Shown one piece after another: positions 42,808 through 56,546 of a stretch of 64,000 nt of DNA; positions within the stretch are counted from its first letter, which is position 1; the number at the start of each line of letters is the position of its first letter. Position numbers and translations under genes: made by a program. Source of the stretch: Microbacteriaceae bacterium VKM Ac-2854 (GTDB taxonomy: Bacteria; Actinomycetota; Actinomycetes; Actinomycetales; Microbacteriaceae); contig JABMLH010000002.1 in assembly GCA_013205085.1 (NCBI GenBank), positions 623,425 to 687,424 on the forward strand, read 5' to 3'. The notes beneath the pieces are model-generated. The model was given only the letters and a program-made list of their open reading frames with translations, did no database searches and was not told where the DNA came from.

Positions 42808-43545
42808 GTGTCCGTCTCCGCGACCAATCAGACCCGGCGAGCGTACGAGCTCGTGCGCTCGCTCATCCGCTCCGGCTTCTTGATCAACGACGAGCAACTC
42901 GTCGAGGACCGCCTGATCAAGACCTTCGGCATCCCGCGGGCGAGTGTGCGTGAGGCGTTGCAGCAGCTGGCCCTGGAGGGTCTCGTGGTTCGGCAGCGTC
43001 GCAGCGGCACGCGGGTCAGCCAGCAGTACTACCAGGTGCCGATCGACGACATCCTGCCGTGGCGCACCCCTGCGGGCTTTATGGTGCGGATCACCGACGA
43101 CCGCGTTGTGCCGTCGACCCCGCTCATCCGCGCCCGACTCGGCACGGCGGACGAGAAGGTCGGCCTGATCGAGCACCTCTTCGAGCACGTCACCGCCGAG
43201 GGCGCCAGCCCGATCGGGGTCCGGATCGCGTACTACCGCACCGCCTTCCGCCAGCCCGCCGCCTGGAACGCCTGCCCGAGCCTCGCCGTCGCGTTCGAGA
43301 GCGTGTTCGGCGTCGCGCTCGGCGGCATCGACACGGTGGTGGATGCGGTGGCGGCGGATGCGACCACGGCCGAACTGCTGGACGTGCGCCTCGGCGCCCC
43401 CGTGCTGATGCGCGAGCAGGTGCTGCGCGGCGTGGACGGCATCGCCTACGAGTACACGTTCTCGCACTACCGCGCCGACCGGGTCTCGTTCCCGATGACC
43501 GGCGAGCCCGAGCGCGCGGACGCCTACGAGCAATTCGCCCGCTGA
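42808..43545 (+). CDS. GntR-family regulator (UTRA/HutC type)
   Basis: 245 residues from GTG at 42808. N-terminal winged helix (about 10-75): [16 protein letters not shown], then [18 protein letters not shown], the standard GntR recognition helix. The C-terminal UTRA domain ends with [19 protein letters not shown] second regulator of the same architecture (53683-54432) ends with the same HYRADRVSF block, so the two are paralogues of one catabolic locus. It probably controls the importer 430 bases downstream; UTRA domains bind small molecules, usually a sugar, amino acid or related effector. Confidence 0.9.
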
Positions 43546-43641: not shown

Positions 43642-43694
43642 AAAAGGGTTGTCACTTTGTCGGCACGTCACCGACAAAGTGACAACCCTTTTTT
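43642..43694. terminator. perfect 22-bp hairpin after the GntR gene
   Basis: Arms AAAAGGGTTGTCACTTTGTC... (43642-43663) and the exact complement (43671-43692) around a 7-base CACGTCA loop; T-run follows. Stable in either orientation and unusually AT-rich for this region. It may be a two-way terminator or a regulatory palindrome. Confidence 0.75.
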
Positions 43695-43973
43695 GTGCTC
43701 GCCGAGTGCCGCGTTTAGCCGGGCCGCACGGCGGATAACGCCGTCCAGGGGCCTCGCGCCACGAATGCGCGGCTGCGAAACCGGCGGTGACCGGGGCATC
43801 CGCGATGAGTACGCCTCGGAGCGCAAACGCAACCGGGCGCAATAGGCGCTTAATCACCGGGATACGGCGGCGTAACGGCGCGCGCCTTGACTGTCCTCAG
43901 ACGCCGCTCGCCTCGATCCCGCAGCGGCCCCTCCCCCCTCGTGCCCCTCCCTCAGCATCGGAGCATCCTGCCC
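43695..43973 (+). other. leader before the ABC importer
   Basis: Together with 43546-43641 this is over 400 bases without a gene, except for the hairpin. A TTGACT at 43887-43892 is the best -35-like hexamer but no matching -10 is visible. Nothing else is recognisable. Confidence 0.4.
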
Positions 43974-45110
43974 ATGAAACTGCGCACCTACGCCGCCATC
44001 GGCGCCCTCACGATCGGACTCGCCGCCGCGCTGTCCGGCTGCACCTCCGCCACCGGATCCGACAGCGGATCCGTCGCCGCCGCCGAGCTCACGGCCGACC
44101 AGCAGTCCTGCGTCGACGCCGTGCAGAGCAAGGTCGACGCCGCCACCGCGGCTTCCGACCTGCTCGCCCCCGAGACCGGCCTCGACCTCGCGTCACTCAG
44201 CGGCGACACCGTCTGGTTCATCACCGTCTCGATGAACCAGTTCTCCACCGACATGGCCGACGGCGTCCAGGCCGCGGTCGACGCGGCCGGGATGAAGCTG
44301 GTGAAGTACGACGGCCAGGGCACCGCGAACCGCTTCAACGAGGGCATCGAGCAGGCCGTCGCGCAGGACGCGGCCGGCATCATCCTCGTCGGCATCGACC
44401 CGGCCGTGGTCTCCTCCGCGCTCGCCGAGGCGGAGGCCGCCGGCATCCCGATCCAGAACACGCTGAACGGCGATCCGGACGACGAGATCCCCACCGGGAT
44501 GTACGGCAACCTCACCTCCGACTTCACCATCGACGGCGCCACCGCCGTGGATTGGGCGCTGGTCGACGGCGGCTGCGACGTGAACATGACCGTCATCTAC
44601 TCCAGCGGCGTGGGCGTCTGGCAGAAGATGGCCGACGGCGCGAAGGCCGAGATGGAGGAGGCGTGCCCCGACTGCACGATCAACCTGCTCGACGTCGACA
44701 TCGCCAAGGTCGCCACGGATGTGGGCAGCCAGCTGCAGACCGCCCTGCAGAAGGACCCCGATACCAACTACGTCTACCCGGTCTGGGACAGCGCGGTGCC
44801 CTACGTCACCCCGGTGCTCTCGGCCGCGAACTCGAGCGCCAAGATCGTCAGCCGTGACGGCCTCGAGGCGAACATCGAGATGATCGTCGCCGGCGACCAG
44901 GACATGACCATCGCGATGCCGACCACCGGCTGGATCGGCTGGATCGCGTTCGACTCGCTCGCCCGGAACATCCTCGGCGACGCCGACCCGGGCTACGTGA
45001 TCCCGACGCACATCATCGACACCGCCAACGTCGGAGACGGCTCGGCCGAGGAGGTCTGGCCGAACTACGTCGGCTACGAGGACGCCTTCACCGAGGCCTG
45101 GGCGAAGTAG
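43974..45110 (+). CDS. ABC-importer substrate-binding lipoprotein (ribose/sugar type)
   Basis: 378 residues from ATG at 43974. Lipobox LAAALSGC (Cys23). A periplasmic-binding type I (RbsB-like) fold: WFITVSMNQFSTDMADGVQAA, then IILVGIDPAVVSS and the hinge segment IPIQNTLNGD. The lysine/Asp specificity pocket differs from RbsB and the ligand is unknown. Begins the import module with the permease and double ATPase downstream; the cargo is presumably the substrate of the flavin monooxygenases that follow. Confidence 0.9.
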   Translation: MKLRTYAAIGALTIGLAAALSGCTSATGSDSGSVAAAELTADQQSCVDAVQSKVDAATAASDLLAPETGLDLASLSGDTVWFITVSMNQFSTDMADGVQAAVDAAGMKLVKYDGQGTANRFNEGIEQAVAQDAAGIILVGIDPAVVSSALAEAEAAGIPIQNTLNGDPDDEIPTGMYGNLTSDFTIDGATAVDWALVDGGCDVNMTVIYSSGVGVWQKMADGAKAEMEEACPDCTINLLDVDIAKVATDVGSQLQTALQKDPDTNYVYPVWDSAVPYVTPVLSAANSSAKIVSRDGLEANIEMIVAGDQDMTIAMPTTGWIGWIAFDSLARNILGDADPGYVIPTHIIDTANVGDGSAEEVWPNYVGYEDAFTEAWAK

Positions 45111-45204
45111 TCCCGGCCCCGCTCCCGATCGGATGCGGCGCGTCGCCCCGGCCCGCCGCATCCGCACCCTGTACCGACCTCTCGCGACCCGAGGAGCCTC
45201 CCGC

Positions 45205-46227
45205 ATGACCGCGACGCAAACCCCAGCCGTCACCGCCCCCGCGGCGCCGGCGCCCACGCCCCCGCCGGCGAAGAGCCGGCTGAACTTCGGCGGACTCTTC
45301 GAGAAGTGGGCCCTCGTCGGCGCCCTGCTGCTGCTCGTGGTGATCTGCATGATCGGCCTGCCGCAGTTCCGCACCGTGGCGCTGTTCACCACGATGCTGA
45401 ACGCGCAGTCCCTGGTGCTGCTGCTCGCGCTGACCGCGACGATCGTGCTGCGGCTGGGCGACTTCGATCTCTCCGTCGCGCAGACCATGGTGGCCACGGC
45501 CGCCGTGATCGGGCAGATGACCGCCGCGGGAGTGCCCGCCTGGATCGCGATCGCCTCGGGCTTCGCGCTCGGCGCCGTGGTCGGCCTGATCAACGCGCTG
45601 CTGGTGGTGCGGGTCGGGGTGGACTCCTTCGTGGCCACCCTCGGCTCCTACACCGCGCTGGCCGGCCTCACCTACCTGATCACCGACAGTCGGATCATCT
45701 CCGGCATCCCCGACGACTTCGTCAACTTCTCCCGCTCGCAACTGCTCGGCCTGCCGCTGATCACCTGGTACGCCTGGATCCTCGTCGTGGTGCTCTGGTA
45801 CGTCTACCAGCGCACGCCGCTGGGCCGCTACACCGTCTTCATCGGCGGCAACCGCAACGCCGCTCGCCTGGCCGGTATCGCCGTGAACCCGATCCGCACC
45901 GGCGCCTACGTGGTCTCGGGCCTGCTCGCCTCGTTCGTCGGCGTCTGCTTCGTGGGCTACTTCGGCGCGGTCGACCCCTCCGTCGGCGGCCAGTACATGC
46001 TGCAGCCCTTCGCCGCCGCCTTCCTCGGCGCCACCGCGATCACGGTGGGCCGCTTCAACGCCTGGGGCACCATCACGGCGCTGTACCTGCTCACCGTCGG
46101 CATCACCGCGCTGCAGCTGCTCGGCGCGCAGACCTGGGTGACCAACCTCTTCTACGGTCTCGCGCTGATGATCTCGGTCACCGCGGCCAAGATCGCCGGC
46201 CGCCGCCGCGCCGGAGGCACGGTATGA
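45205..46227 (+). CDS. ABC-importer permease (ribose/sugar type)
   Basis: 340 residues from ATG at 45205 with GAGGAG upstream. RbsC-like BPD_transp_2 family: eight or so helices, the conserved LGDFDLSVAQ (equivalent to the DLSVGS motif), NALLVVRVGVDSFVATLG, and NRNAARLAGIAV (EAA-like coupling to the ATPase). Its stop overlaps the ATPase start (ATGA). One permease gene only, so the transporter is a homodimer. Confidence 0.92.
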   Translation: MTATQTPAVTAPAAPAPTPPPAKSRLNFGGLFEKWALVGALLLLVVICMIGLPQFRTVALFTTMLNAQSLVLLLALTATIVLRLGDFDLSVAQTMVATAAVIGQMTAAGVPAWIAIASGFALGAVVGLINALLVVRVGVDSFVATLGSYTALAGLTYLITDSRIISGIPDDFVNFSRSQLLGLPLITWYAWILVVVLWYVYQRTPLGRYTVFIGGNRNAARLAGIAVNPIRTGAYVVSGLLASFVGVCFVGYFGAVDPSVGGQYMLQPFAAAFLGATAITVGRFNAWGTITALYLLTVGITALQLLGAQTWVTNLFYGLALMISVTAAKIAGRRRAGGTV

Positions 46228-47774
46228 GCACGGCCGGATCGGCCGAGCCGCGGATCGCCCTGCGGGTCGCGAACCTTCGCAAGACCTACGGCGGTGCGGT
46301 GGCTCTCGACGACACCAGCCTGACCGTCCGCGCCGGCGAGGTGCACGCGCTGCTCGGCCAGAACGGCTGCGGCAAGTCGACCCTGGTCAAGTCGCTCACC
46401 GGCGTGATCACGCCCGACAGCGGCAGCGTCGAGGTCTACGGATCCGCGCTCGAGATGCCGCTGAGCGACCCGCACACCCGCGGCATCGCGGTGATCCACC
46501 AGGACATCGGCCTCGTCGAGGACATGACCGTGCTGGAGAACCTCGGCGCGAACGCCCGCTACGGCACCCACCTGCTCGCACCGGTGGACGTGAAGAACGA
46601 GCGGACGATCTACACCGAGCTGATGCACGGCCTCGGCTTCCAGTTCCCGCTCGACGCCCTCGTCTCCACGCTCAGTCCCGCCGAGCGCGCGCTGCTCGCC
46701 GTCGTCCGCGCGCTGCGGCTGATGGAGGGTGAGACGGATTCGCAGCTGTTCATCCTCGACGAGCCGACCGCGGCGCTCTCCCGGCCCGAGGCGGCGCGGC
46801 TGCTGGCGCTGATGCGCACGGTCGCGGATCGCGGCTCCGCCGTGGTCTTCATCAGCCACCGCCTGGCCGAGGTGATGGAGGTCTGCGATCGGGCGACCGT
46901 GATGCGGGCCGGCCGCGACGTGGTCGAGGTCGCCATCGCCGACACCACCCGCGCCGACCTGGTCGCGCACATGCTCGGGCGCCGGCTCGACGACTTCTAC
47001 CCGGAACCGCCCGCCATCGCCCCGGGAGCCGTCCGACTCGCCGTCGAGGGCATCACCGGCGACCGCGTGGACGACGTCTCGTTCGCGGTGCGCGCCGGCG
47101 AGGTCGTCGGGGTGACGGGCCTGGCCGGGATGGGCCAGGAGGAACTGCCGTTCCTGCTCTCGGGTGCGCAGAAGGCCCGCCGCGGCGCTGTCGCGATCGA
47201 CGGATCCGCCACCACGTTGCGCACGCCGGCCGCCGCGATCCAGGCGGGCGTCGCGCTGGTGCCGGGCAACCGTCTCCGCGACGGACTCTGGATCGCCGGC
47301 ACCGCGGAGGAGAACGTGGTGCTGCCCGTGCTCGGCCGCTTCTCCGGACTCTTCGGGGTGCGGCAGAAGGACGTCCGCGCCCGGGCCGCCGAGCTGATGA
47401 CCCGGGTGCGTGTGCACCCGAACCAGCCCGAGTACCCGATGGCCGCGTTCTCCGGCGGCAACCAGCAGAAGGTCGTCTTCGCGAAGTGGCTGCAGAAGGA
47501 GCCCGGCGTGCTGCTGCTGGACGAGCCGACGCAGGGCGTCGACCCCGGCTCGGCGAAGGAGCTGCTCGCGGCGGCGATGGACACCGCAGCCGGCGGCAGC
47601 GCCGTGGTGGTCTTCTCGGGCGAGCACGAGATGCTCGCCGCCGTCTGTCACCGCGTGCTGGTGCTGCACCATGGCAGCCTGATCGCCGAACTCGCGGGCG
47701 ACGCGCTCACCGAGCACGCCCTGCTGGAGGCGTGCGAATCCTCCCCCGCCGAGGTCGAGACCTTCGCGGCTTAG
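46224..47774 (+). CDS. ABC-importer double ATP-binding protein (RbsA type)
   Basis: 516 residues. Two ATPase cassettes: first with GQNGCGKST and LDEPTAALSR; second with a degenerate P-loop GLAGMGQEEL instead of GxxGxGKST, which is usual in RbsA/MglA proteins, and FSGGNQQKVVFAKWL. Drives import through the permease above. Translation is coupled to it. A 59-nt palindrome separates this gene from the monooxygenases. Confidence 0.93.
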   Translation: MSTAGSAEPRIALRVANLRKTYGGAVALDDTSLTVRAGEVHALLGQNGCGKSTLVKSLTGVITPDSGSVEVYGSALEMPLSDPHTRGIAVIHQDIGLVEDMTVLENLGANARYGTHLLAPVDVKNERTIYTELMHGLGFQFPLDALVSTLSPAERALLAVVRALRLMEGETDSQLFILDEPTAALSRPEAARLLALMRTVADRGSAVVFISHRLAEVMEVCDRATVMRAGRDVVEVAIADTTRADLVAHMLGRRLDDFYPEPPAIAPGAVRLAVEGITGDRVDDVSFAVRAGEVVGVTGLAGMGQEELPFLLSGAQKARRGAVAIDGSATTLRTPAAAIQAGVALVPGNRLRDGLWIAGTAEENVVLPVLGRFSGLFGVRQKDVRARAAELMTRVRVHPNQPEYPMAAFSGGNQQKVVFAKWLQKEPGVLLLDEPTQGVDPGSAKELLAAAMDTAAGGSAVVVFSGEHEMLAAVCHRVLVLHHGSLIAELAGDALTEHALLEACESSPAEVETFAA

Positions 47775-47792
47775 GCCGACCCGTCCCCACCC

Positions 47793-47851
47793 GCGAGATG
47801 CCTCTTCGGTACGCGACACGCCGCGCGAAACGTACAGAAGAGGCATCTCGC
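47793..47851. repeat. 59-nt dispersed palindrome, copy C
   Basis: Same orientation as copy B at 24976; ends GCGAGATGCC and GGCATCTCGC. Arms GCGAGATGCCTCTT-CG-GTACG against CGTAC-AG-AAGAGGCATC. It falls between the ATPase stop and the first monooxygenase start, within the catabolic locus. Confidence 0.88.
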
Positions 47852-47900
47852 AGGGAAACCAGCCCACCTCGCCCCTCAGAAACTCATGTAAGGAACCACC

Positions 47901-49214
47901 ATGTCTGCAGACCCCTTCCGCCTCGGCTGGTTCGGCAACCTCGCCGCCCCCGAATGGAAGTCGCCGTACAGCGGCAACGACGCGACCACCAACTACTTCA
48001 ACCTGCGCTTCTACCAGGACATGATCCGCAACATGGAGCGCGCCGGCTTCGACTTCCTGATGATCGAGGACTCGCTGATGGTCAGCGACATCTACCAGGG
48101 CACGGCCGAGATCGAGCTCAAGCACGCCCGCTACGCGCCGAAGATGGATCCGATCGCCGCCGCCGGCATGCTCGCCGCGGTCACCGAGAAGATCGGCATC
48201 GTCTGCACCGCGTCGACCACCTTCTACCACCCGTACCAGCTGGCCCGGCAGATGGCGACGCTGAACCACATCACCGGCGGTCGCATCGGCTGGAACGTGG
48301 TCACCTCCTCCGAGGACCGCGCCGCGCAGAACTTCGGCCTGGACAACCTGCCCGAGCACGACCGCCGTTACGACATGGCGGAGGAGTTCATGGACGTGGC
48401 GAAGAAGCTCTGGGGCTCGTGGGAGGACGGCGCGATCCTGGCCGATCCGGAGTCCGGCTACTACACCGATCACACCAAGGTGAAGCCGATCCACCACGAA
48501 GGCGAGTTCTTCCGCTCCCGCGGCCCGCTGAACCTGCCGCCCGGGCCGCACGGACAGCCCGTGATCTGCCAGGCCGGTGGCTCGCCCCGCGGCCGCGACT
48601 TCGCCGCCGAGCACTCGGACATCGTGCTGACCATCCCCGCCGGCATCGAAGGCGCCAAGAAGTACCGCGCCGACCTGCGCGAGCGCGCGGTGAAGTTCGG
48701 CCGCAACCCCGACGACCTCAAGGTCTTCCCGGTGGTCTACCCGATCATCGGCGAGACCCAGCGCGAGGCGGAGGAGAAGAACAAGGCCTGGTACGCCCGC
48801 AAGCAGCACAACTTCGAGGTGCAGATGACGCACATGGCGGCGACCATGGAGCTGGACATGTCGCAGTTCGACCTCGACGCGCCCATCCCCGACGACCTCA
48901 CCACGAACGGCCACCAGAGCCAGCTCGTCGAGTGGCGCAAGCAGCTGAACGGCAAGACCATCCGCGAGGGCTTCAGCGGGATGCGCGTGCAGACCACCGA
49001 GATGGTCGGCACGCCCGACGGCATCGCGGCGCAGATGGACGAGTTCATGCAGGAGGTGGGCGGCGACGGCTTCCTGATCTACGGCCAGCCGATCTCGCGC
49101 CAGTCGATCGCCGAGATGACCGACGGCGTCGCGCCCGCCCTGCAGCGCCGCGGCCTGCTGCGCACCTCCTACGCGCACGACACCCTGCGCGAGAACCTGC
49201 GCTCGTTCGTCTGA
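47901..49214 (+). CDS. LLM flavin-dependent monooxygenase (SnaA/NtaA/DszA type), first copy
   Basis: 437 residues from ATG at 47901 with AAGGA upstream. TIM-barrel luciferase-like enzyme of the class that uses reduced flavin and O2 to cut C-N or C-S bonds. Features: LGWFGNLAAPEW at the N-terminus, ERAGFDFLMIEDSLMVSD, GIVCTASTTFYHPYQLARQ, the flavin-phosphate segment GGRIGWNVVTSSEDRAAQNFG, and GQPVICQAGGSPRGRDFAAEH. Length is typical of DszA/NtaA. Substrate unknown. The stop overlaps the hydrolase start by one base. Confidence 0.9.
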   Translation: MSADPFRLGWFGNLAAPEWKSPYSGNDATTNYFNLRFYQDMIRNMERAGFDFLMIEDSLMVSDIYQGTAEIELKHARYAPKMDPIAAAGMLAAVTEKIGIVCTASTTFYHPYQLARQMATLNHITGGRIGWNVVTSSEDRAAQNFGLDNLPEHDRRYDMAEEFMDVAKKLWGSWEDGAILADPESGYYTDHTKVKPIHHEGEFFRSRGPLNLPPGPHGQPVICQAGGSPRGRDFAAEHSDIVLTIPAGIEGAKKYRADLRERAVKFGRNPDDLKVFPVVYPIIGETQREAEEKNKAWYARKQHNFEVQMTHMAATMELDMSQFDLDAPIPDDLTTNGHQSQLVEWRKQLNGKTIREGFSGMRVQTTEMVGTPDGIAAQMDEFMQEVGGDGFLIYGQPISRQSIAEMTDGVAPALQRRGLLRTSYAHDTLRENLRSFV

Positions 49215-50026
49215 TGATGCACCGCTCCTACGTGGACACCCCGCGCGGTCAGGTGCACCTGCGCCGCGCGGGTCACGGCCCCGAGACCGTGCTGCTGCTG
49301 CACCAGACGGCCGCGTCCTCGGCGATGTACGAGGCTTTCGCCGCCGCACTGGTCGCGGCCGAGCCCGAACGGTACACGCTGATCGCGGCCGATACGCCGG
49401 GCTTCGGGATGTCGTTCACGCCCGAGACGCCCTACGACCTGGTCGACTGGGCGCAGGATCTGCTCGCCGCCGTCGACGGGCCGCTGCACGTGCTCGGGCA
49501 CCACACCGGCGCGTCGATCGCGGTGGTGATGGCCGCGGTCTCCGATCGGGTCGTGTCGCTGACGATGATCGGCGCCACCGTGCTCCCCGATGCCGAGCGG
49601 GCGCGCTGGGAGGCGGGCGTGACCGGGATGCAGCTCGCCGAATCCGGCGCCCACCTCGCCACCGCCTGGTGGCAGGTCGCGAACATCGACGGCGAGCCGA
49701 ACGCGTTCCCGCCCTCGCTCGCGCTGCGCCAACGGGAGGCGGTCGACAAGCTGCACGCGGGCGCACGCTGGCACGAGGCGTACCTCACCGTGTTCCGCAC
49801 CGACGTGGCCGCGCTGCTCGCCGCGACCACCGCGCCGGCGCTGCTGATCTGCGGCACCGCGGACGTGCTGCACCCGTATGTTCCGACGACCCTCGCGGCG
49901 CGCGACGGCATCGCCTACGTCGAGCTCGAGGCGGGCGCCTACGTGCTCGATCAGAGCCCGGAGGCGGTCGTCGCGCCCGTGCTCGCCTTCCTCGCCGCGC
50001 ATCCGATCCCCGTGGAGACCGCATGA
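49214..50026 (+). CDS. alpha/beta-hydrolase fold protein lacking the classical nucleophile
   Basis: 270 residues (ATG at 49214; ATG at 49217 equally placed). HxAGSSG-like oxyanion region is LLLHQTAASSAMY, and the nucleophile elbow reads VLGHHTGASIAV, so the expected Ser (GxSxG) is a His. The acid is in GTADVLHPYV; the usual catalytic His position reads AGAYVLDQSP (Tyr instead of His). Thus two of three triad residues are not standard. RutD, the hydrolase of the Rut pathway, is a known relative with an atypical elbow, and here the gene also lies among RutA-like enzymes. Reaction unknown; it could be a non-hydrolytic enzyme. Confidence 0.8.
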   Translation: MMHRSYVDTPRGQVHLRRAGHGPETVLLLHQTAASSAMYEAFAAALVAAEPERYTLIAADTPGFGMSFTPETPYDLVDWAQDLLAAVDGPLHVLGHHTGASIAVVMAAVSDRVVSLTMIGATVLPDAERARWEAGVTGMQLAESGAHLATAWWQVANIDGEPNAFPPSLALRQREAVDKLHAGARWHEAYLTVFRTDVAALLAATTAPALLICGTADVLHPYVPTTLAARDGIAYVELEAGAYVLDQSPEAVVAPVLAFLAAHPIPVETA

Positions 50027-50916
50027 ACCCCCTGATCGTCTGGATCGCCGAGCCGGCCTCGGCCCGCGACACGCTGAACACGATCGCCGAACTCGACACG
50101 GCCGGGGTCGACGCCGTGATCCTGCCCGGCGAGACCGACGGCGCCGCGGATGCGCTGCTGCTCGCCTCGGCCGCCACGCGCCGAGCCCCGCGGATCGGGC
50201 TGGTGCCGGCGCTGTCGCCGTGGTCGCAGCCGCCGTTCCACACGGCGCGCGCGCTGAACACGCTGGATGCGCTCAGCGGTGGCCGGGCGGGCTGGTTCGT
50301 GGACGATCGACCGCTCGACGGCGGCGGCAGCGACGACTCCGGCCGCTGGTTCGCGGTCGGCGCCTCCGACGCCGAGCGGGCGGAGGCGCTGGCCGACTAC
50401 CTCGCCGCGACGGCCGCGCTCTGGAACTCCTGGGAGCCCGACTCGGTGATCGCCGACGTCGCCTCCGGACGCTACGTCGACGCCGACCGGGTGCACGTGC
50501 CGCACTACCGCGGCGCGTACTTCGCCTCGCGCGGGCCGCTGAACGCGCCGCGCGGGCCGCAGGGCCGACCGGTGCGCTTCGCCTCCGCCGCCGTGGACTG
50601 CGCGGATGTGGTGATCGTCTCGTCCGAAGACGAGGTGGACGCGGCCCGGTTCGCCGGCGCGCGGGTGCTGCTGCGGCTCGCCGCGGAGGCGGCCCTCGCG
50701 CCCCCGGCCACCGCCGCCGACGGCTACGCCTTCGCCGGCATCCCCCGCGGCCCGCGCTACGGCGAGGTGCTGCACGGCGTGATCCCGGCGCTGCGGGCCG
50801 GCGCCGCCGCCCGCACCGGCCTACTGCGCGAGCGCTTCGGACTCTCCGAGGAGGCCTTCGCCTTCGTGCTCGCGCCGACCATCGACGACCTGACTCTGGA
50901 AGGGAGCGCCCGATGA
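50023..50916 (+). CDS. shortened LLM-family protein
   Basis: 297 residues, overlapping both neighbours by 4 bases. Homologous to the full-length family (LNTLDALSGGRAGWF, ALWNSWEPDSVIADVASGRYVDADRVH, FASRGPLNAPRGPQGRPVRFAS) but with a short N-terminus and no counterpart of the central 180 or so residues found in its neighbours. The loss might leave a non-catalytic partner or a divergent monooxygenase. It is complete as an open frame with no stop, so it is not simply a broken gene. Confidence 0.75.
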   Translation: MNPLIVWIAEPASARDTLNTIAELDTAGVDAVILPGETDGAADALLLASAATRRAPRIGLVPALSPWSQPPFHTARALNTLDALSGGRAGWFVDDRPLDGGGSDDSGRWFAVGASDAERAEALADYLAATAALWNSWEPDSVIADVASGRYVDADRVHVPHYRGAYFASRGPLNAPRGPQGRPVRFASAAVDCADVVIVSSEDEVDAARFAGARVLLRLAAEAALAPPATAADGYAFAGIPRGPRYGEVLHGVIPALRAGAAARTGLLRERFGLSEEAFAFVLAPTIDDLTLEGSAR

Positions 50917-52181
50917 TGGCCCACACGCCCGACGGCCGGATGACCCTCGGCTGGTTCGTCAACTACATGCCCACCGCCTGGAATCGGCCGTGGGCCGGCC
51001 CCGATCCGCGCGAATGGCTCGACGGGCAGTTCTACATCGATATGGCCCGATCGCTGGAGCGCAGCGGCATCGACTTCATCATGCTGGAGGACTCGAGCGT
51101 GGTGCCCGAGAACTTCGGCGGCGACATGGTGGCCGAGTTCATGGCCACGGTGAAGGCGCCCAAGCACGATCCGCTGCCGCTCGCCGCCGCGATCGCCGAG
51201 CAGACCGACCGGCTCGGCATCGTCACCACGATGTCGACCAGCCTGTATCCGCCGGAGCGGATCGCCCGACTGCAGTCGACCCTCGGCGAACTCTCCGACG
51301 GGCGCGCCGGGTGGAACATCGTCACCTCCTTCGAGGACCTCTCCGCGCAGCAGGTCGGGCTCGACACCCTCTGGGAGCACGACGAGCGCTACCGCCGCGC
51401 CGACGAGTACCTGCGCACCGTGTCCGCACTCTGGGCGGCGGATGCGCGGGTGCGGCTGCAGGGCGACTACTACACGGTCGACGCTCCGCCCATCCCGATG
51501 CCGTCGCAGCAGCGGCCGGTGTTCTGCCAGGCCGGCGGCTCCTCCGCCGGCATGGACTTCGCCGCCGACTGGGCCGACCTGATCGTCTCGGCGCCCGTGG
51601 GAATCCCGGCGATGACGGCGTACCGCGCCGGCATCCGCTCGCGGATCGAGGCCGACGGCGGCGATCCGGACCGCTGCCGGGTGCTGTACATGATCACGCC
51701 GATCCTCGGCGAGACGGATGCGGAGGCGCAGGCCAAGAAGGAGCGGATGTACGCCGCGGACGGCGACAACTTCCTCCGCCGCATCGTGCAGCTCTCGAAC
51801 ATCTCGGAGATCGACTTCGCGCAGTACGACCTGGACGCGCCGATCCCGGCGGAGGCCACCACCAACGGCGCGCAGTCGATCCTCGACACGATGAAGCGGC
51901 TCACCGCCGGCTCCTCGCTGCGCGCCGTGCTCGGCTCCACCGGCGAATCCACCGCCCTGGAACTCGTCGGCACGCCGGCGACCGTGGCGGATCGGATGGA
52001 GGAGGCGATGGCGGAGGTCGGCGGCGACGGCTTCCTACTCTTCCACGGCGGCGGCGGGCTGATCACCCGGCGCTACCTCGACGAGGTGCTCGACGGCCTC
52101 ATCCCCGAACTGCAGCGCCGCGGCCTCGCCCAACGCGACTACGCCCCCGGCACCTTCCGAGACCGCCTCCAGCGCCACTAG
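50913..52181 (+). CDS. LLM flavin-dependent monooxygenase, second copy
   Basis: 422 residues (ATG at 50913 or 50916, overlapping the previous stop). Same SnaA/NtaA/DszA group: LGWFVNYMPTAWNRPW, ERSGIDFIMLEDSSVVPENFG, GIVTTMSTSLYPPERIARL, GRAGWNIVTSFEDLSAQQVGL and RPVFCQAGGSSAGMDFAADW. Compared with the first copy it has LYPPERIAR in place of FYHPYQLAR, so substrate or partner binding may differ. A compound repeat follows, then the third copy. Confidence 0.9.
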   Translation: MMAHTPDGRMTLGWFVNYMPTAWNRPWAGPDPREWLDGQFYIDMARSLERSGIDFIMLEDSSVVPENFGGDMVAEFMATVKAPKHDPLPLAAAIAEQTDRLGIVTTMSTSLYPPERIARLQSTLGELSDGRAGWNIVTSFEDLSAQQVGLDTLWEHDERYRRADEYLRTVSALWAADARVRLQGDYYTVDAPPIPMPSQQRPVFCQAGGSSAGMDFAADWADLIVSAPVGIPAMTAYRAGIRSRIEADGGDPDRCRVLYMITPILGETDAEAQAKKERMYAADGDNFLRRIVQLSNISEIDFAQYDLDAPIPAEATTNGAQSILDTMKRLTAGSSLRAVLGSTGESTALELVGTPATVADRMEEAMAEVGGDGFLLFHGGGGLITRRYLDEVLDGLIPELQRRGLAQRDYAPGTFRDRLQRH

Positions 52182-52196
52182 CCCCCCTTCCCACCT

Positions 52197-52322
52197 CGCT
52201 GGTCGAGTAGCCCAAGGCCGCTTGCGGCCGACGCGTATCGAGACCCATGCACCCTCTCTCGAGAGAATGCCGCCGGATCTCGATACGCCCGTTCGCAGAG
52301 CAAACGGGCTACTCGATCAGCG
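52197..52322. repeat. compound palindromic repeat (ggtcgagtagcc type)
   Basis: Outer arms CGCTGGTCGAGTAGCCC (52197-52213) and GGGCTACTCGATCAGCG (52306-52322) are complementary with one mismatch, with inner GTATCGAGAC / ATCTCGATAC. A short GGCCGCTTGCGGCC hairpin sits in the left arm. This style of repeat is common in Microbacteriaceae genomes. It divides the second from the third monooxygenase gene. Confidence 0.8.
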
Positions 52323-52348
52323 AGAAGGCCCCTCTAAGGAGAAACAAC

Positions 52349-53683
52349 ATGTTCCATCTCGGCTGGTTCCTCGGGAACGGCTTCGGCATCCAGGCCTGGG
52401 ATCAGGTCAACGGCGACGGCCCCTGGGTCGGCGCGAACGCGCACGACTGGATGAAGCCCGACATCTACATCGACCTCACCACCTCGATGGAGCGCGCGGG
52501 CTTCGACTACATCCTGATCGAGGACACCGCGATGGTGGAGGATAGCTACAACGGCTCCGCCGAGACCTCGCTGCGGCGCGGTTTTATGGCTCCGAAGAAC
52601 GACCCGATGCCGCTGATCCCGCTGATGACCCGCGCCACCAAGCACATCGGCATCGCGGCCACGGCGTCCGTGATCCAGTACCACCCGTACATGGCGGCGC
52701 GGCTGTTCACCACCCTCGACCACCTCACCGAGGGCCGGATCGCGATGAACGTGGTCACCTCCGTCACCGACCGCGTCGCCCAGAACTACGGCTTCGAGCA
52801 GCACTTCGAGCACGACGAGCGCTACGCGATGGCGTCCGAGTGGGTCGAGATCGTCAAGGCTCTGCAGACCTCGTGGGAACCGGAGGCGGTGCTGGCCGAT
52901 CTCGCGAACGGGATCTACGCGGACTCCTCGCGCGTGCATCCGATCGACTTCCGCGGGAAGTACTTCTCCTCGCGCGGCCCGCTGAACACCATCCCGGGCC
53001 CGCAGGGTGTGGTGCCGATCGCCTCCGCCGGCGGCTCCCCCGCCGGGCGCGCGTTCGCCGCCGAGGTCGACGACACGATGATGTCGATGTGCAAGACCGT
53101 CGAAGACATGAAGGCGTACCGCGAGGACATGTACCGCCGCCTGCGCCTGCAGGGCCGCGACCCCTCGAAGGTGAAGTTCCTCTTCCTGGTCACCCCGGTG
53201 ATCGCGGACACGGATGAGGAGGCGCGCGCCAAGGCCGCCGCGATGGCGCTGGCCCGCTCCAGCGACGCCGCGATCGAGTACAACCTCTGGAACATGTCGT
53301 ACACCTCGGGCGGCCGGATCGACTTCGGCGCGATCGACCCCGACCTGCTGGTGTCGGACATCGACCTCTCGCGGCAGAACGGCGAGATGAGCTCGATCGC
53401 GAACCTGTTCCAGGACTCGGAGGGCAAGACCCTGCGCGAGGTGGTCGCCTCGACGCACCAGATCACCGACCTCGGCCTGGTCGGCAGCCCCGACACCGTC
53501 GCGGCGAAGATGGGCGAGATCATGGCCGAGGTCGGCGGCGACGGCTTCCTGCTCTACCTGCCCACCACCCGGCGCAACATGGCCGAGGTCGCCGACGGCC
53601 TGGCGGCGGCGCTGCGCCGGCGCGGGCTGATCCGCGACGGCTACTCCGGATCGACGCTGCGCGAGCACCTGCTGGAGTTCTGA
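52349..53683 (+). CDS. LLM flavin-dependent monooxygenase, third copy
   Basis: 444 residues from ATG at 52349, AGGAG 7-8 bases upstream. MFHLGWFLGNGFG, ERAGFDYILIEDTAMVEDSYNG, GIAATASVIQYHPYMAARL, GRIAMNVVTSVTDRVAQNYGF and GVVPIASAGGSPAGRAFAAEV are in the same order as the first two. In place of the GRxGWN in the other copies it has GRIAMN, and where they have CQAGG it has ASAGG, so it is the most divergent of the three. The stop overlaps the second GntR gene start. Confidence 0.9.
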   Translation: MFHLGWFLGNGFGIQAWDQVNGDGPWVGANAHDWMKPDIYIDLTTSMERAGFDYILIEDTAMVEDSYNGSAETSLRRGFMAPKNDPMPLIPLMTRATKHIGIAATASVIQYHPYMAARLFTTLDHLTEGRIAMNVVTSVTDRVAQNYGFEQHFEHDERYAMASEWVEIVKALQTSWEPEAVLADLANGIYADSSRVHPIDFRGKYFSSRGPLNTIPGPQGVVPIASAGGSPAGRAFAAEVDDTMMSMCKTVEDMKAYREDMYRRLRLQGRDPSKVKFLFLVTPVIADTDEEARAKAAAMALARSSDAAIEYNLWNMSYTSGGRIDFGAIDPDLLVSDIDLSRQNGEMSSIANLFQDSEGKTLREVVASTHQITDLGLVGSPDTVAAKMGEIMAEVGGDGFLLYLPTTRRNMAEVADGLAAALRRRGLIRDGYSGSTLREHLLEF

Positions 53684-54432
53684 TGCCCGGTCAGGAGGAG
53701 CATCCGCGCTCCGTGCCGGGCAGCGCGCACGGGCGGCAGACCTCGTCGCGCCGCGTGCGCGACCTGGTGCACGCCTCCATCCGTGCCGGCATCTACCCCG
53801 AGCACGAGACCCTCGCCGAGGACACCCTGGTGCACACGCTGAGCGCCAGCCGCAGCGCGGTGCGCCGGGCGCTGCAGTCGCTCGCGGAGCAGGGGCTGAT
53901 GATCCGCAAGCCGCGGATGGGCACCTTCCCGGCGTACCGCGGCGTCAGCCTCGACCTGCGCGACGTCGTCGACGGCGAGCCGGAACGCTTCTCGCTCGAC
54001 ATCATCGCCCAGCGCGAGGTGGAGTCGTTCCCATTGATCCGCACCCTGCTCGCTCTGGATGAACAGCACGTGCGGATGATGGAGAACCTCTTTCTGCACG
54101 ACGGTCTCGTGATCGGCGTGCGCACCGCCTACTTCCCGCGCCGCTATACCTCGCGCGGAATGGCCGGCCCGCTGACCATGCGCGAGGTGGGTCGGCAGGT
54201 CTTCGGCACCGACGAGTTGCGGATCGCGACGACGGAGATCGGTTCGACCATCGCCGACGAGACGACCAGCCACCTGCTCGGCATCGACGCCGGTGCCCCC
54301 GTGCTCACCCGGCACCAGGTCTTCGTCGGGCCCGACGGCACCCCCATCCAGATCGTGTTCGACCACTACCGCGCCGACCGGGTCTCCTTCCGGATGCTCG
54401 GCGACACCCCGACCCCTCAGGAGCAATCATGA
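53683..54432 (+). CDS. second GntR-family regulator (UTRA type)
   Basis: 249 residues; ATG at 53683 overlaps the previous stop and its own stop overlaps the next start, so it is embedded in the operon. Winged helix: RRVRDLVHASIRAGIY then SASRSAVRRALQSLAEQGL, and a UTRA effector domain ending [19 protein letters not shown]. Paralogue of the regulator at 42808. Being inside the catabolic transcript suggests autoregulation by the pathway intermediate. Confidence 0.9.
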   Translation: MPGQEEHPRSVPGSAHGRQTSSRRVRDLVHASIRAGIYPEHETLAEDTLVHTLSASRSAVRRALQSLAEQGLMIRKPRMGTFPAYRGVSLDLRDVVDGEPERFSLDIIAQREVESFPLIRTLLALDEQHVRMMENLFLHDGLVIGVRTAYFPRRYTSRGMAGPLTMREVGRQVFGTDELRIATTEIGSTIADETTSHLLGIDAGAPVLTRHQVFVGPDGTPIQIVFDHYRADRVSFRMLGDTPTPQEQS

Positions 54433-55544
54433 AGTGCGGCGTCTTCCTCCCGACCACCAACAACGGCTACATCTACTCGGTGAACTCACCCCAGTACATG
54501 CCCGACTACGCGCTGCAGAAGCAGATCACCCAGACCGCCGAGGAGTGCGGCTACGACTTCTCGCTGTCGATGGTGAAGTACCGCGGATTCGGCGGCGAGA
54601 CCGACTTCTGGAACTGGGCCGTCGAGTCCACAGCGGTGATGGCCGCGCTGGTGGAGGCGACCAGCACGATCAAGCTGTGGGCCTCGGTCGGCGTGCCGTC
54701 CGCGAACCCGGCGATGATCGCGCGCACCGTCTCGACGCTGGACGACGCCTCCGGTGGCCGGTTCGGCGTGAACATCGTCGGCGGCTGGAACCGCTACGAG
54801 TACGAGCAGATGGGGATGTGGCCGTCGGAGGACTACTACCGCGACCGCTACGCCTGCACCGCCGAATTCATCGAGGTGATGCGCGGCCTCTGGGCCACCG
54901 GGCGGCTCACCTACGAGGGCCGCTTCTATCAGCTGGACGACTGCATCGTGCAGCCCGTGCCCGCGCATCCGATCACCGTGATCGTGCCCGGCCAGTCACC
55001 GGCCAGCCTCGCGACCGCGGCGGCGACGGCCGACGTGAACTTCATCCTCGGTCCGCTGCCCGAGCTCGCCGCCGCGCGCCGCGGACTCGAGGAACAGCTC
55101 GCCCTGACCGGGCGGGACTGCGAGAGCGCCGTGCTGATCGGCGTGATCATGGCCGAGACGGATGAGGAGGCCGTGGCGCAGGCCCGCTTCTACATGGAGG
55201 GCGTCGACCTCGGCGCGCAGGCCGGGATCCTCGCTGCGGCGAGCAACGACCGCACCGGCACCGCCGCGGGCGTCGGCCTGGAGCGCCAGCGCGGCGACGT
55301 GCCCGAGATCGTGTTCGAGCACCCGGAGCGCGCGGCGTTCCTGCAGGGCTCGTGCTGGTACTCCCCCGTGATCGTCGGCTCGTACCAGCGGATCGCGGCG
55401 TACCTCGACGCGGTGGACACCGAGGCCGGCGTCGGCAGCGCCGTGCTCACCTTCGCCGACTACACCACGGATGTGCGCCGCTTCGCCGAGAAGGTGATGC
55501 CGCTGATGGTGACGTACGAGGCGCCGGTTGTGGCGGTGGGGTGA
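54429..55544 (+). CDS. RutA-like pyrimidine monooxygenase
   Basis: 371 residues. Much closer to RutA than to the three DszA-type copies: MKCGVFLPTTNNGYIYS, then the segment FGGETDFWNWAVES, TASGGRFGVNIVGGWNRYEYEQMGMWP, and C-terminal LTFADYTTDVRRFAEKVMPL, each aligning with E. coli RutA. RutA uses a flavin peroxide to open uracil or thymine at the amide bond. No rutB, rutF (reductase) or other rut genes lie nearby, and the flavin reductase must be elsewhere. It may act on another cyclic amide; whether uracil is the substrate is not shown by the sequence. Confidence 0.85.
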   Translation: MKCGVFLPTTNNGYIYSVNSPQYMPDYALQKQITQTAEECGYDFSLSMVKYRGFGGETDFWNWAVESTAVMAALVEATSTIKLWASVGVPSANPAMIARTVSTLDDASGGRFGVNIVGGWNRYEYEQMGMWPSEDYYRDRYACTAEFIEVMRGLWATGRLTYEGRFYQLDDCIVQPVPAHPITVIVPGQSPASLATAAATADVNFILGPLPELAAARRGLEEQLALTGRDCESAVLIGVIMAETDEEAVAQARFYMEGVDLGAQAGILAAASNDRTGTAAGVGLERQRGDVPEIVFEHPERAAFLQGSCWYSPVIVGSYQRIAAYLDAVDTEAGVGSAVLTFADYTTDVRRFAEKVMPLMVTYEAPVVAVG

Positions 55545-55546
55545 GT

Positions 55547-56217
55547 TCAGTCTCGCTCGGATCGGGAGATGTCGTCAGCCCAATCGGCGAAGAACTGACG
55601 CATCGGGCCGATCTGCACCGGATCGGCGCCGAAGTCGGCGAACTGCGAATCGGTGATGTTGCCGATCCGCCGGAGGACGCGGGCGAATCGGATGCGGTGA
55701 AGCCGGCGTCATATTCCGCGGCCCGTTCGAGGGCGTCGTCCTTCGTGAATCGGGAAGACTGCAGGTAGGCGTACACATCGAGGGCATCCCTCGGCGCTGA
55801 TCGACCCCACAGGGTGAGCACCTTGGAGGCGAAGGAGTCGCCGATCGAGAGGACGGGTCCGACGGAGAGGATGGTGGGCGGGTCTTTGCGCCAATCGATG
55901 CCCAGTTCGACCTTGGTGGTCACGCCGGCGACCGTGGTGATGTTCAGACGGACGAATCCGTCATTCGAGATCGGGTCGAGTTCGACCTCATGACCGGCCC
56001 CGTGCACCGCCTCGATCACGATGTCCCGCGCCGTCGTCGCGTTCGAGCCGACGATGTTCGTGAACAGGTCCAGATCATCGGAGAGTCGTCCGGGTCTGAT
56101 GCCGTGCAGCCGCACCACGTGACCGCCCGCGATCACGAAGCCGAGGTGCTCGATCGCCGGCAGGATGATCGAGATCAATTCCGCCTGGAGCGCGGCCTCC
56201 GCCGGCCCGCGCGCCAC
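55547..56217 (-). pseudogene. AbiEii-type nucleotidyltransferase, frameshifted
   Basis: Starts GTG at 56217, overlapping the stop of the small upstream gene. Reads VARGPAEAALQAELISI, AGGHVVRLHGIRPGRLSDDLDLFTN (nucleotidyltransferase GG...DxD motif), and GIDWRKDPPTILS. At about 55696-55701 the frame breaks: the coding sense continues in another frame as HRIRFARVLRRIGNITDSQFADFGADPVQI, ending at TGA 55547-55549. A single-base loss near GGCTTCACC would explain this. AbiEii/Sav1826-type toxins add nucleotides to tRNA; this copy cannot make a whole protein unless translation shifts. Confidence 0.8.
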
Positions 56218-56546
56218 TAGGCGACCGCGGGCAACTCGGGGAAGCGTTGCGCCCATGCCTGCTCGAGATCGCGACCGACCATCAGAGTCGGCCACAGCCT
56301 GATCAGCGTGGTTTCGTCGAGGTAGGCGGCGAGATCCTCGGCGGTCGAGGCCTCTCGGATGACGGTCGAATACAGCTCGCGAAGGCTCCCGTCCTCTGTC
56401 GTCACGAACTGCGCCGGGCCCGACCACGCGAGTCGATTCGGCAGCGTGACGACCTCGGGCAGCTCCGCCCGCAGGTCGTCGAGCGCATTCGGCAGGACGA
56501 CCGGACGCAGATCGCGGTAGATCGTGTGCCCGTCTCGACTCGGCAT
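56217..56546 (-). CDS. hypothetical protein in the antitoxin position of the AbiE-like pair
   Basis: 109 residues, intact. N-terminal PSRDGHTIYRDLRPVVL, mixed helix and strand, hydrophobic Trp/Pro-containing C-terminus (RLWPTLMVGRDLEQAWAQRFPE). No DNA-binding motif typical of AbiEi is evident, but it precedes and overlaps the nucleotidyltransferase by one base, the arrangement of type IV toxin-antitoxin pairs. Possibly a shortened antitoxin or an unrelated regulator. Confidence 0.6.
   Translation of the reverse strand: MPSRDGHTIYRDLRPVVLPNALDDLRAELPEVVTLPNRLAWSGPAQFVTTEDGSLRELYSTVIREASTAEDLAAYLDETTLIRLWPTLMVGRDLEQAWAQRFPELPAVA

Follow-up and report, generated by a model that had tools for sequence, protein, structure and literature searches.

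What does an array of five luciferase-family proteins do behind a ribose-type ATP-binding cassette (ABC) importer? The question is raised by an island in the genome of Microbacteriaceae bacterium VKM Ac-2854, studied here within a window of 64,000 nucleotides (the whole stretch analysed; GenBank assembly GCA_013205085.1, contig JABMLH010000002.1, positions 623,425 to 687,424 of the forward strand). Eleven genes, all on the plus strand between 42808 and 55544 and each present and in frame, follow one another in the order GntR1, SBP, PERM, ATP, LLM1, HYD, LLM2s, LLM3, LLM4, GntR2 and LLM5. The island is very probably catabolic, and with slightly better than even confidence we read it as taking up a nitrogen heterocycle and opening it stepwise by oxidation. 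Its kind, the importer-plus-oxygenase cluster, is already known, and the island represents a variant new to it. Its features are:

42808-43545, plus strand: GntR1, GntR-UTRA regulator (Pfam GntR 47.5 bits, UTRA 39.8 bits)
43642-43692, no strand: hairpin with 22-bp arms between GntR1 and SBP (palindrome scan)
43837-43855, plus strand: conserved block before SBP (alignment with VKM Ac-2855, Subtercola and Cryobacterium)
43974-45110, plus strand: SBP, substrate-binding lipoprotein (Pfam Peripla_BP_4)
45205-46227, plus strand: PERM, importer permease (Pfam BPD_transp_2; permease tree)
46224-47774, plus strand: ATP, double-domain importer ATPase (ABC_tran in two stretches; tree)
47901-49214, plus strand: LLM1, full NtaA/DmoA-type flavin mononucleotide (FMN) monooxygenase (TIGR03860, 441.8 bits)
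49214-50026, plus strand: HYD, alpha/beta-hydrolase fold with a G-H-H-T-G elbow (Pfam, alignment, predicted structure)
50023-50916, plus strand: LLM2s, short luciferase-family subunit, NtfO1-like (motif, fold and loop comparisons)
50913-52181, plus strand: LLM3, NtaA-type monooxygenase, NtfO2-like (best solved relative 7e36_B, 178.8 bits)
52349-53683, plus strand: LLM4, full NtaA/DmoA-type monooxygenase (TIGR03860, 347.8 bits)
53683-54432, plus strand: GntR2, second GntR-UTRA regulator (Pfam)
54429-55544, plus strand: LLM5, RutA-family enzyme (RutA model, 326.4 bits; alignment)

Pfam and NCBIfam scans confirmed the family calls of the original prediction, made from the bare letters: an importer, three DszA/NtaA-like enzymes, a shortened copy, a RutA-like enzyme, a hydrolase and two UTRA-type GntR regulators. 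The range it had given, 43974..55544, holds every gene but the first regulator, which starts outside it, at 42808.

Scanning species genomes with SBP alone yielded three named loci, in VKM Ac-2855 (SBP identity 98%; locus L059), a Cryobacterium metagenome-assembled genome (68%) and Subtercola boreus (68%), all of which carry SBP-PERM-ATP-LLM1-HYD-LLM2s-LLM3-LLM4, followed by LLM5. In a genome of another family (G464), relatives of LLM4, LLM5, PERM, ATP, SBP, LLM1, LLM3 and GntR1 occur reordered and partly on the opposite strand, with an LLM2s relative (43% identity) adjoining LLM3; GntR2 was not found in this rearranged stretch. The regulators are the more mobile part: among the loci compared, none except this one and that of VKM Ac-2855 has GntR2 separating LLM4 from LLM5, and GntR1 relatives are found upstream in VKM Ac-2855 and behind LLM5 in Subtercola and the Cryobacterium genome. 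In 5/5 sampled congeners, lysC and recR are separated by 109 to 937 bp with no cluster between them, as opposed to 14 kb here; the presence or absence of the island at a single site speaks for its gain or loss as a block. SBP relatives (E 1e-20) were detected in 13 of the 396 genomes of the order, at 16 places, and the cluster surrounds them only at the own-genome place and at one in G464 (C15). Judged by this gene order and by the empty site in congeners, the importer and the monooxygenases form one inherited unit, as the original prediction had supposed; co-occurrence, which it had named as a check on whether the two are unrelated, ties them together beyond chance.

The substrate class can be approached through the importer. 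SBP bears a lipobox, ALSGC (by eye), and is matched at E 1e-5 by a single solved protein, 4yv7 (38 bits). The fold families of this importer are those of sugar importers, which would fit a second explanation, namely that a glycoside or nucleoside is taken up and the oxygenases remove its aglycone. However, in an NCBIfam scan that covered SBP and PERM and not the ATPase, neither protein reached a sugar equivalog cut-off, both remaining far below (SBP against XylF, 20 bits, cut-off 389.55; PERM against AraH, 140.6 bits, cut-off 378). Among PERM paralogues in the own genome, the best reaches 198 bits and none of the remaining eight exceeds 97. This best paralogue (L039; contig C13, 130000-149000) adjoins a RutA gene that passes the equivalog cut-off (598.7 against 498.3 bits), together with genes for an amidase (AtzE-like) and an isochorismatase (RutB-like), both below their own cut-offs, and this locus probably serves the catabolism of pyrimidines or ureides, with the ABC importer as part of the cluster. 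The other eight lie in six loci, each represented once in our trees; an equivalog cut-off was passed only in two of these (RhaS in L147; ChvE and GguB in L152), whereas in the remaining four the best matches, to YtfQ, XylF or rhizopine-type models, fall short of it.

In the permease tree, the 22 importers of this kinship form one group (support 98/99) that excludes the six further ribose-fold importers of this genome; the ATPase tree gives the same picture with lower support (93/93). A RutA-family gene lies within ~10 kb at 6/16 of the SBP-homologue places (the window, G464 C15, own C13, G464 C2, G372 and G411). Hydantoinase-like genes adjoin SBP homologues in G412 and at one G425 place, an amidase does so in G400 and a syringate O-demethylase-like gene in G465, and similar aromatic-type neighbours were recognised by eye in G529, G434 and G142, an amidohydrolase in G142 being the one tested. 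On a Salipiger plasmid, the relative is followed by ATPase, permease, allantoinase PuuE and ureidoglycolate lyase genes (as annotated); a Microbacterium plasmid relative has mixed neighbours. By trees, paralogue ranking and equivalog cut-offs we reject a sugar importer identity. Inspection by eye of the cluster and of the flank lists of the four orthologous loci, with no model search made, turned up no sugar kinase, glycosidase or nucleosidase, and the importer groups with those beside non-sugar genes. This renders sugar-linked catabolism improbable and speaks against the original prediction of a sugar-linked substrate. Its alternative, breakdown of a heterocyclic compound, gains from importer kin beside RutA, hydantoinase-like and allantoinase genes, the substrate itself being a prediction. 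Naming based on sugars probably misleads for this ribose-fold importer lineage.

A second line of evidence comes from the short protein LLM2s and its neighbour LLM3. LLM2s scores 112.7 bits against TIGR03860, below the cut-off of 279.7, and has lost the FMN-phosphate motifs and the presumed lid but kept a side loop; conversely, the side loop is absent from LLM3 in the alignment. The top fold match of LLM2s is NtfO1, and the best solved relatives of LLM3 are NtfO2 (7e36_B) and then BdsA. NtfO1-NtfO2 and StmO1-StmO2 are heterodimeric flavin oxygenases of polyketide biosynthesis (PDB 7e36; available part of PMC8027225), and the 24-residue and 34-residue segments compared here would correspond to the side loop tail and the lid described in that part. 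With its fold match, its side loop and neither lid nor FMN-phosphate motifs, LLM2s has the attributes of an NtfO1-like subunit. Because the two genes are adjacent and their loops complementary, we infer that LLM2s and LLM3 form an NtfO1-NtfO2-like heterodimer, a prediction by analogy that is the firmest of our mechanistic claims. The shortened length and lost motifs would also fit a decaying, functionless duplicate. Yet LLM2s is kept beside LLM3 in 5/5 orthologous loci, including the rearranged one; among the best matches listed from the same family, 21/23 short relatives adjoin a same-strand luciferase-family frame with FMN motifs (by pattern), in loci mostly chosen for LLM2s similarity and thus not a random sample; and LLM3 lacks the very loop that LLM2s retains. 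We therefore reject decay, which appears very improbable given this pairing and the complementary loops. The loop counts were likewise made mostly on loci so chosen, with each locus counted once, and exclude rows of RutA-like or other subfamilies (L061_+19570, L078_+5711, window_+54444, L043_+6662 and L054_+2803) and end-cut rows (L022_-2829, L032_+3 and L055_+9). Split flavin oxygenases of this sort could be widespread in the bacterial family. Separately, a short NtfO1-like subunit shares one open frame (L014, 985-2391) with a GNAT acetyltransferase domain, owing to either a fusion or a missed start.

LLM1, LLM3 (297.9 bits) and LLM4 all pass the TIGR03860 (NtaA/DmoA) cut-off. The closest solved relatives are YtnJ/MoxC (CmoJ) and LadA for LLM1 and DmoA, then BdsA, for LLM4. 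As the NtaA/DmoA subfamily spans C-N and C-S substrates, these best matches do not fix the bond cleaved. They bring up a third explanation, organosulfur breakdown for sulfur supply, in which an organosulfur compound is imported and LLM1 and LLM4 cleave C-S bonds in the manner of CmoJ, DmoA and DszA; YtnJ/MoxC, DmoA and BdsA, and for LLM3 NtfO2 followed by BdsA, are the relatives in its favour. But matches within a subfamily of both chemistries leave the bond open, neither LLM5, with its resemblance to RutA, nor the importer kin linked to ureides and aromatics gives a hint of sulfur, and reading the flank lists by eye, with no dedicated search made, revealed no gene specific to sulfur metabolism. 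We consider sulfur scavenging unlikely. Catabolism of riboflavin or lumichrome, as in Microbacterium maritypicum, would draw on a shared superfamily (that of RcaE) and a related bacterial family. Riboflavin lyase (5w48), however, scores well below other solved enzymes for LLM1 (213.7 versus 272.5), LLM2s (60.3 versus 98.8), LLM3 (104 versus 178.8) and LLM4 (147.5 versus 221.7). In view of these scores we reject riboflavin lyase identity, and the comparison with RcaE made in the original prediction finds no support for these four proteins. Moreover, the known lumichrome route, as set out in the available part of PMC12746152, relies on a cytochrome P450 and breaks down the pyrimidine ring by hydrolysis, leaving this last explanation scarcely credible.

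In the window, two further proteins would act on a ring and on its opened product. LLM5 aligns end to end with RutA, keeping Asn134 and Trp139 and replacing Thr105 by Ser (RutA numbering, with a 19-residue offset worked out here). These three RutA residues lie near the flavin, in the region of the oxygen pocket (available part of PMC10005588). N5-oxygen chemistry would be possible in LLM5.

A canonical alpha/beta-hydrolase has a Ser, Cys or Asp nucleophile and a catalytic His. HYD departs from this pattern on both counts: its elbow reads G-H-H-T-G at a place where 3kxp, E-2-(acetamidomethylene)succinate hydrolase, has an aligned Ser, and Ala occupies the position of the His presumed to be catalytic in 3kxp. 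The GHHTG motif is found in the window protein and 3/3 orthologues, and ten further relatives (E 1e-15; 394 genomes of the class searched) have G-x-H-T-G in 10/10 cases, some of them keeping a GH near the C-terminal base position; a more distant own-genome copy, itself adjoining oxygenases, reads GMKTG. With His at the nucleophile position in 14/15 of the HYD relatives examined, the change is an old family trait rather than recent decay. The structural model is modest (mean pLDDT, the predicted local distance difference test score, 74.8; five-sequence alignment), and its Foldseek list is generic (a thioesterase, fluoroacetate dehalogenase and 3kxp), so we drew no function from it. Two frames elsewhere (L161 and L162) apparently hold two GxHTG hydrolase units in tandem. 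In the open-licence literature, we found no paper on this cluster or on a GxHTG hydrolase family.

The cluster contains no flavin reductase by Pfam and NCBIfam scans and a Flavin_Reduct search, as the original prediction had noted. It had called this unusual, which is not supported: the own genome has 45 luciferase-family matches and four Flavin_Reduct genes, none of the four within the cluster, and four relatives have two to four Flavin_Reduct matches each, none on the cluster-bearing contig, in a genome-wide search confined to Flavin_Reduct and not including the FMN_red family. Reductases in trans are the rule here.

On the regulatory side, GntR1 is likely a ligand-sensing repressor, going by its domains. 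The hairpin at 43642-43692, which was not found in the GntR1-SBP gap of VKM Ac-2855, is followed by T residues and is likely an intrinsic terminator. Because of this strong hairpin and its T residues before SBP, GntR1 is probably transcribed separately from the genes starting with SBP. At the hairpin and at three gaps between later genes the cluster may be divided into separate transcripts, the second outcome that the original prediction had named as refuting it. VKM Ac-2855 and Subtercola conserve the block at 43837-43855, which is weaker in Cryobacterium; a pattern drawn from these sequences, tried as an operator shared by several genes, has one match and no second copy in the window, and the block is a candidate promoter or operator.

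Taken together, the island would work as follows. SBP and the PERM/ATP pair would import a small nitrogen-containing heterocycle, be it a cyclic ureide, an imide or an aromatic relative, that probably bears N- or S-linked substituents, and GntR-UTRA repressors sensing the compound would allow the genes to be induced. Reductases encoded elsewhere would supply reduced FMN to four oxygenases: LLM1, LLM4, the LLM2s-LLM3 pair as a single heterodimeric enzyme, and LLM5. The RutA-like LLM5 might oxidatively cleave a ring amide bond, and HYD might act on the ring-opened product without the usual Ser nucleophile.

Several observations weigh against this reading. LLM5 stays below the RutA equivalog cut-off (TIGR03612, 326.4 bits against 498.3) and is fragmented in the Cryobacterium genome, and the cluster lacks an amidase or isochorismatase. 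The rearranged stretch of G464 yielded no HYD, and an oxygenase match lies beside only 1/10 of its further relatives (short flanks). For LLM2s, VIA-align places NtfO1 (29.4) only level with 3sdo (28.4), and by sequence 3sdo and YtnJ outscore NtfO1, which ranks fifth. An LLM4 relative (57%) is found in G1031 without this importer, and an LLM1 relative (54%) belongs to an own-genome cluster (L041) that has an SBP_bac_5 protein instead. No ring-compound context was recognised at 3/16 SBP-homologue places (the other G425 place, G403 and G473), and the nearest sampled outgroup, on plasmid pRHL3 of R. jostii, adjoins acyl-CoA and alcohol dehydrogenase genes. Finally, the window importers are sister to the ureide-linked and aromatic-linked groups and inside neither, in trees whose rows were mostly picked by SBP similarity and which therefore show kinship, not specificity; the tree tool also warned of long branches and of joins among the sugar rows and two others.

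That the island constitutes a new oxygenolytic route for nitrogen heterocycles, combining a split oxygenase, a GxHTG hydrolase and a ureide/aromatic importer lineage, is a tentative and rather doubtful proposition. If true, one barrel of the oxygenase would keep the flavin and the other donate the dimer loop, a hydrolase would operate without a Ser, Cys or Asp nucleophile, and a ribose-fold importer lineage would have evolved for ureides and aromatics. A vague locus of many oxygenases plus a sugar importer has in this way become a set of claims testable with few purified proteins, SBP offering a direct way to the substrate.

As to layout, the original prediction had described the genes as mostly overlapping by 1-4 bases; this applies to 6/10 junctions, and four gaps of 94-428 bases depart from it (GntR1-SBP 428, SBP-PERM 94, ATP-LLM1 126 and LLM3-LLM4 167 bases), all lengths depending on the start codon chosen for each gene. 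The ATP-LLM1 (47775-47900) and LLM3-LLM4 (52182-52348) gaps exceed their VKM Ac-2855 counterparts in length and contain imperfect long inverted repeats (by eye). The GC content is 70.2% in the island versus 70.6% in the rest. In the interval between LLM5 and recR, an AbiEii-type nucleotidyltransferase domain (PF08843, 34.9 bits) is encoded on the minus strand at 55447-56427; in VKM Ac-2855, by comparison, the matched ends of recR and LLM5 are <60 bases apart. Further groups of NtaA-type oxygenases, two to seven per cluster, occur in L040, L041 and L119-L122, with a ribBA-like gene in L120, and an NtaA/DmoA-type oxygenase gene (L134, 8986-10290) lies just behind the fas4 region of the R. fascians plasmid pFiD188.

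Compared with known systems, the island recalls the Rut pathway in that LLM5 aligns with RutA and HYD weakly matches RutD (19.8 bits, cut-off 238.5), and differs from it in that the cluster yielded no gene for RutB, RutC, RutE, RutF or RutG and that the genome encodes, at another locus, a RutA passing the cut-off. RcaE of Microbacterium shares the superfamily and N-heterocycle chemistry but is outscored for LLM1, LLM2s, LLM3 and LLM4. The ethylenediaminetetraacetate/nitrilotriacetate type exemplifies actinobacterial clusters that combine several oxygenases with ABC importers of other kinds. Such actinobacterial clusters in our material (L041 in the own genome; L119-L120 in G1031) likewise unite NtaA-type oxygenases, ABC importer genes and GntR regulators; they differ in the SBP_bac_5 importer proteins of L041 and L122 and the flavin reductase genes of L041 and L119, whereas the present island has a ribose-fold importer and no reductase. 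Similar in architecture are NtfO1-NtfO2 and StmO1-StmO2, which, in the part of PMC8027225 available, share with LLM2s-LLM3 overlapping genes, a short subunit with the side loop and without the lid, and a long subunit without the side loop; yet NtfO1-NtfO2 serves polyketide biosynthesis, whereas the predicted LLM2s-LLM3 pair resides in an importer-linked, very probably catabolic island alongside three further oxygenases.

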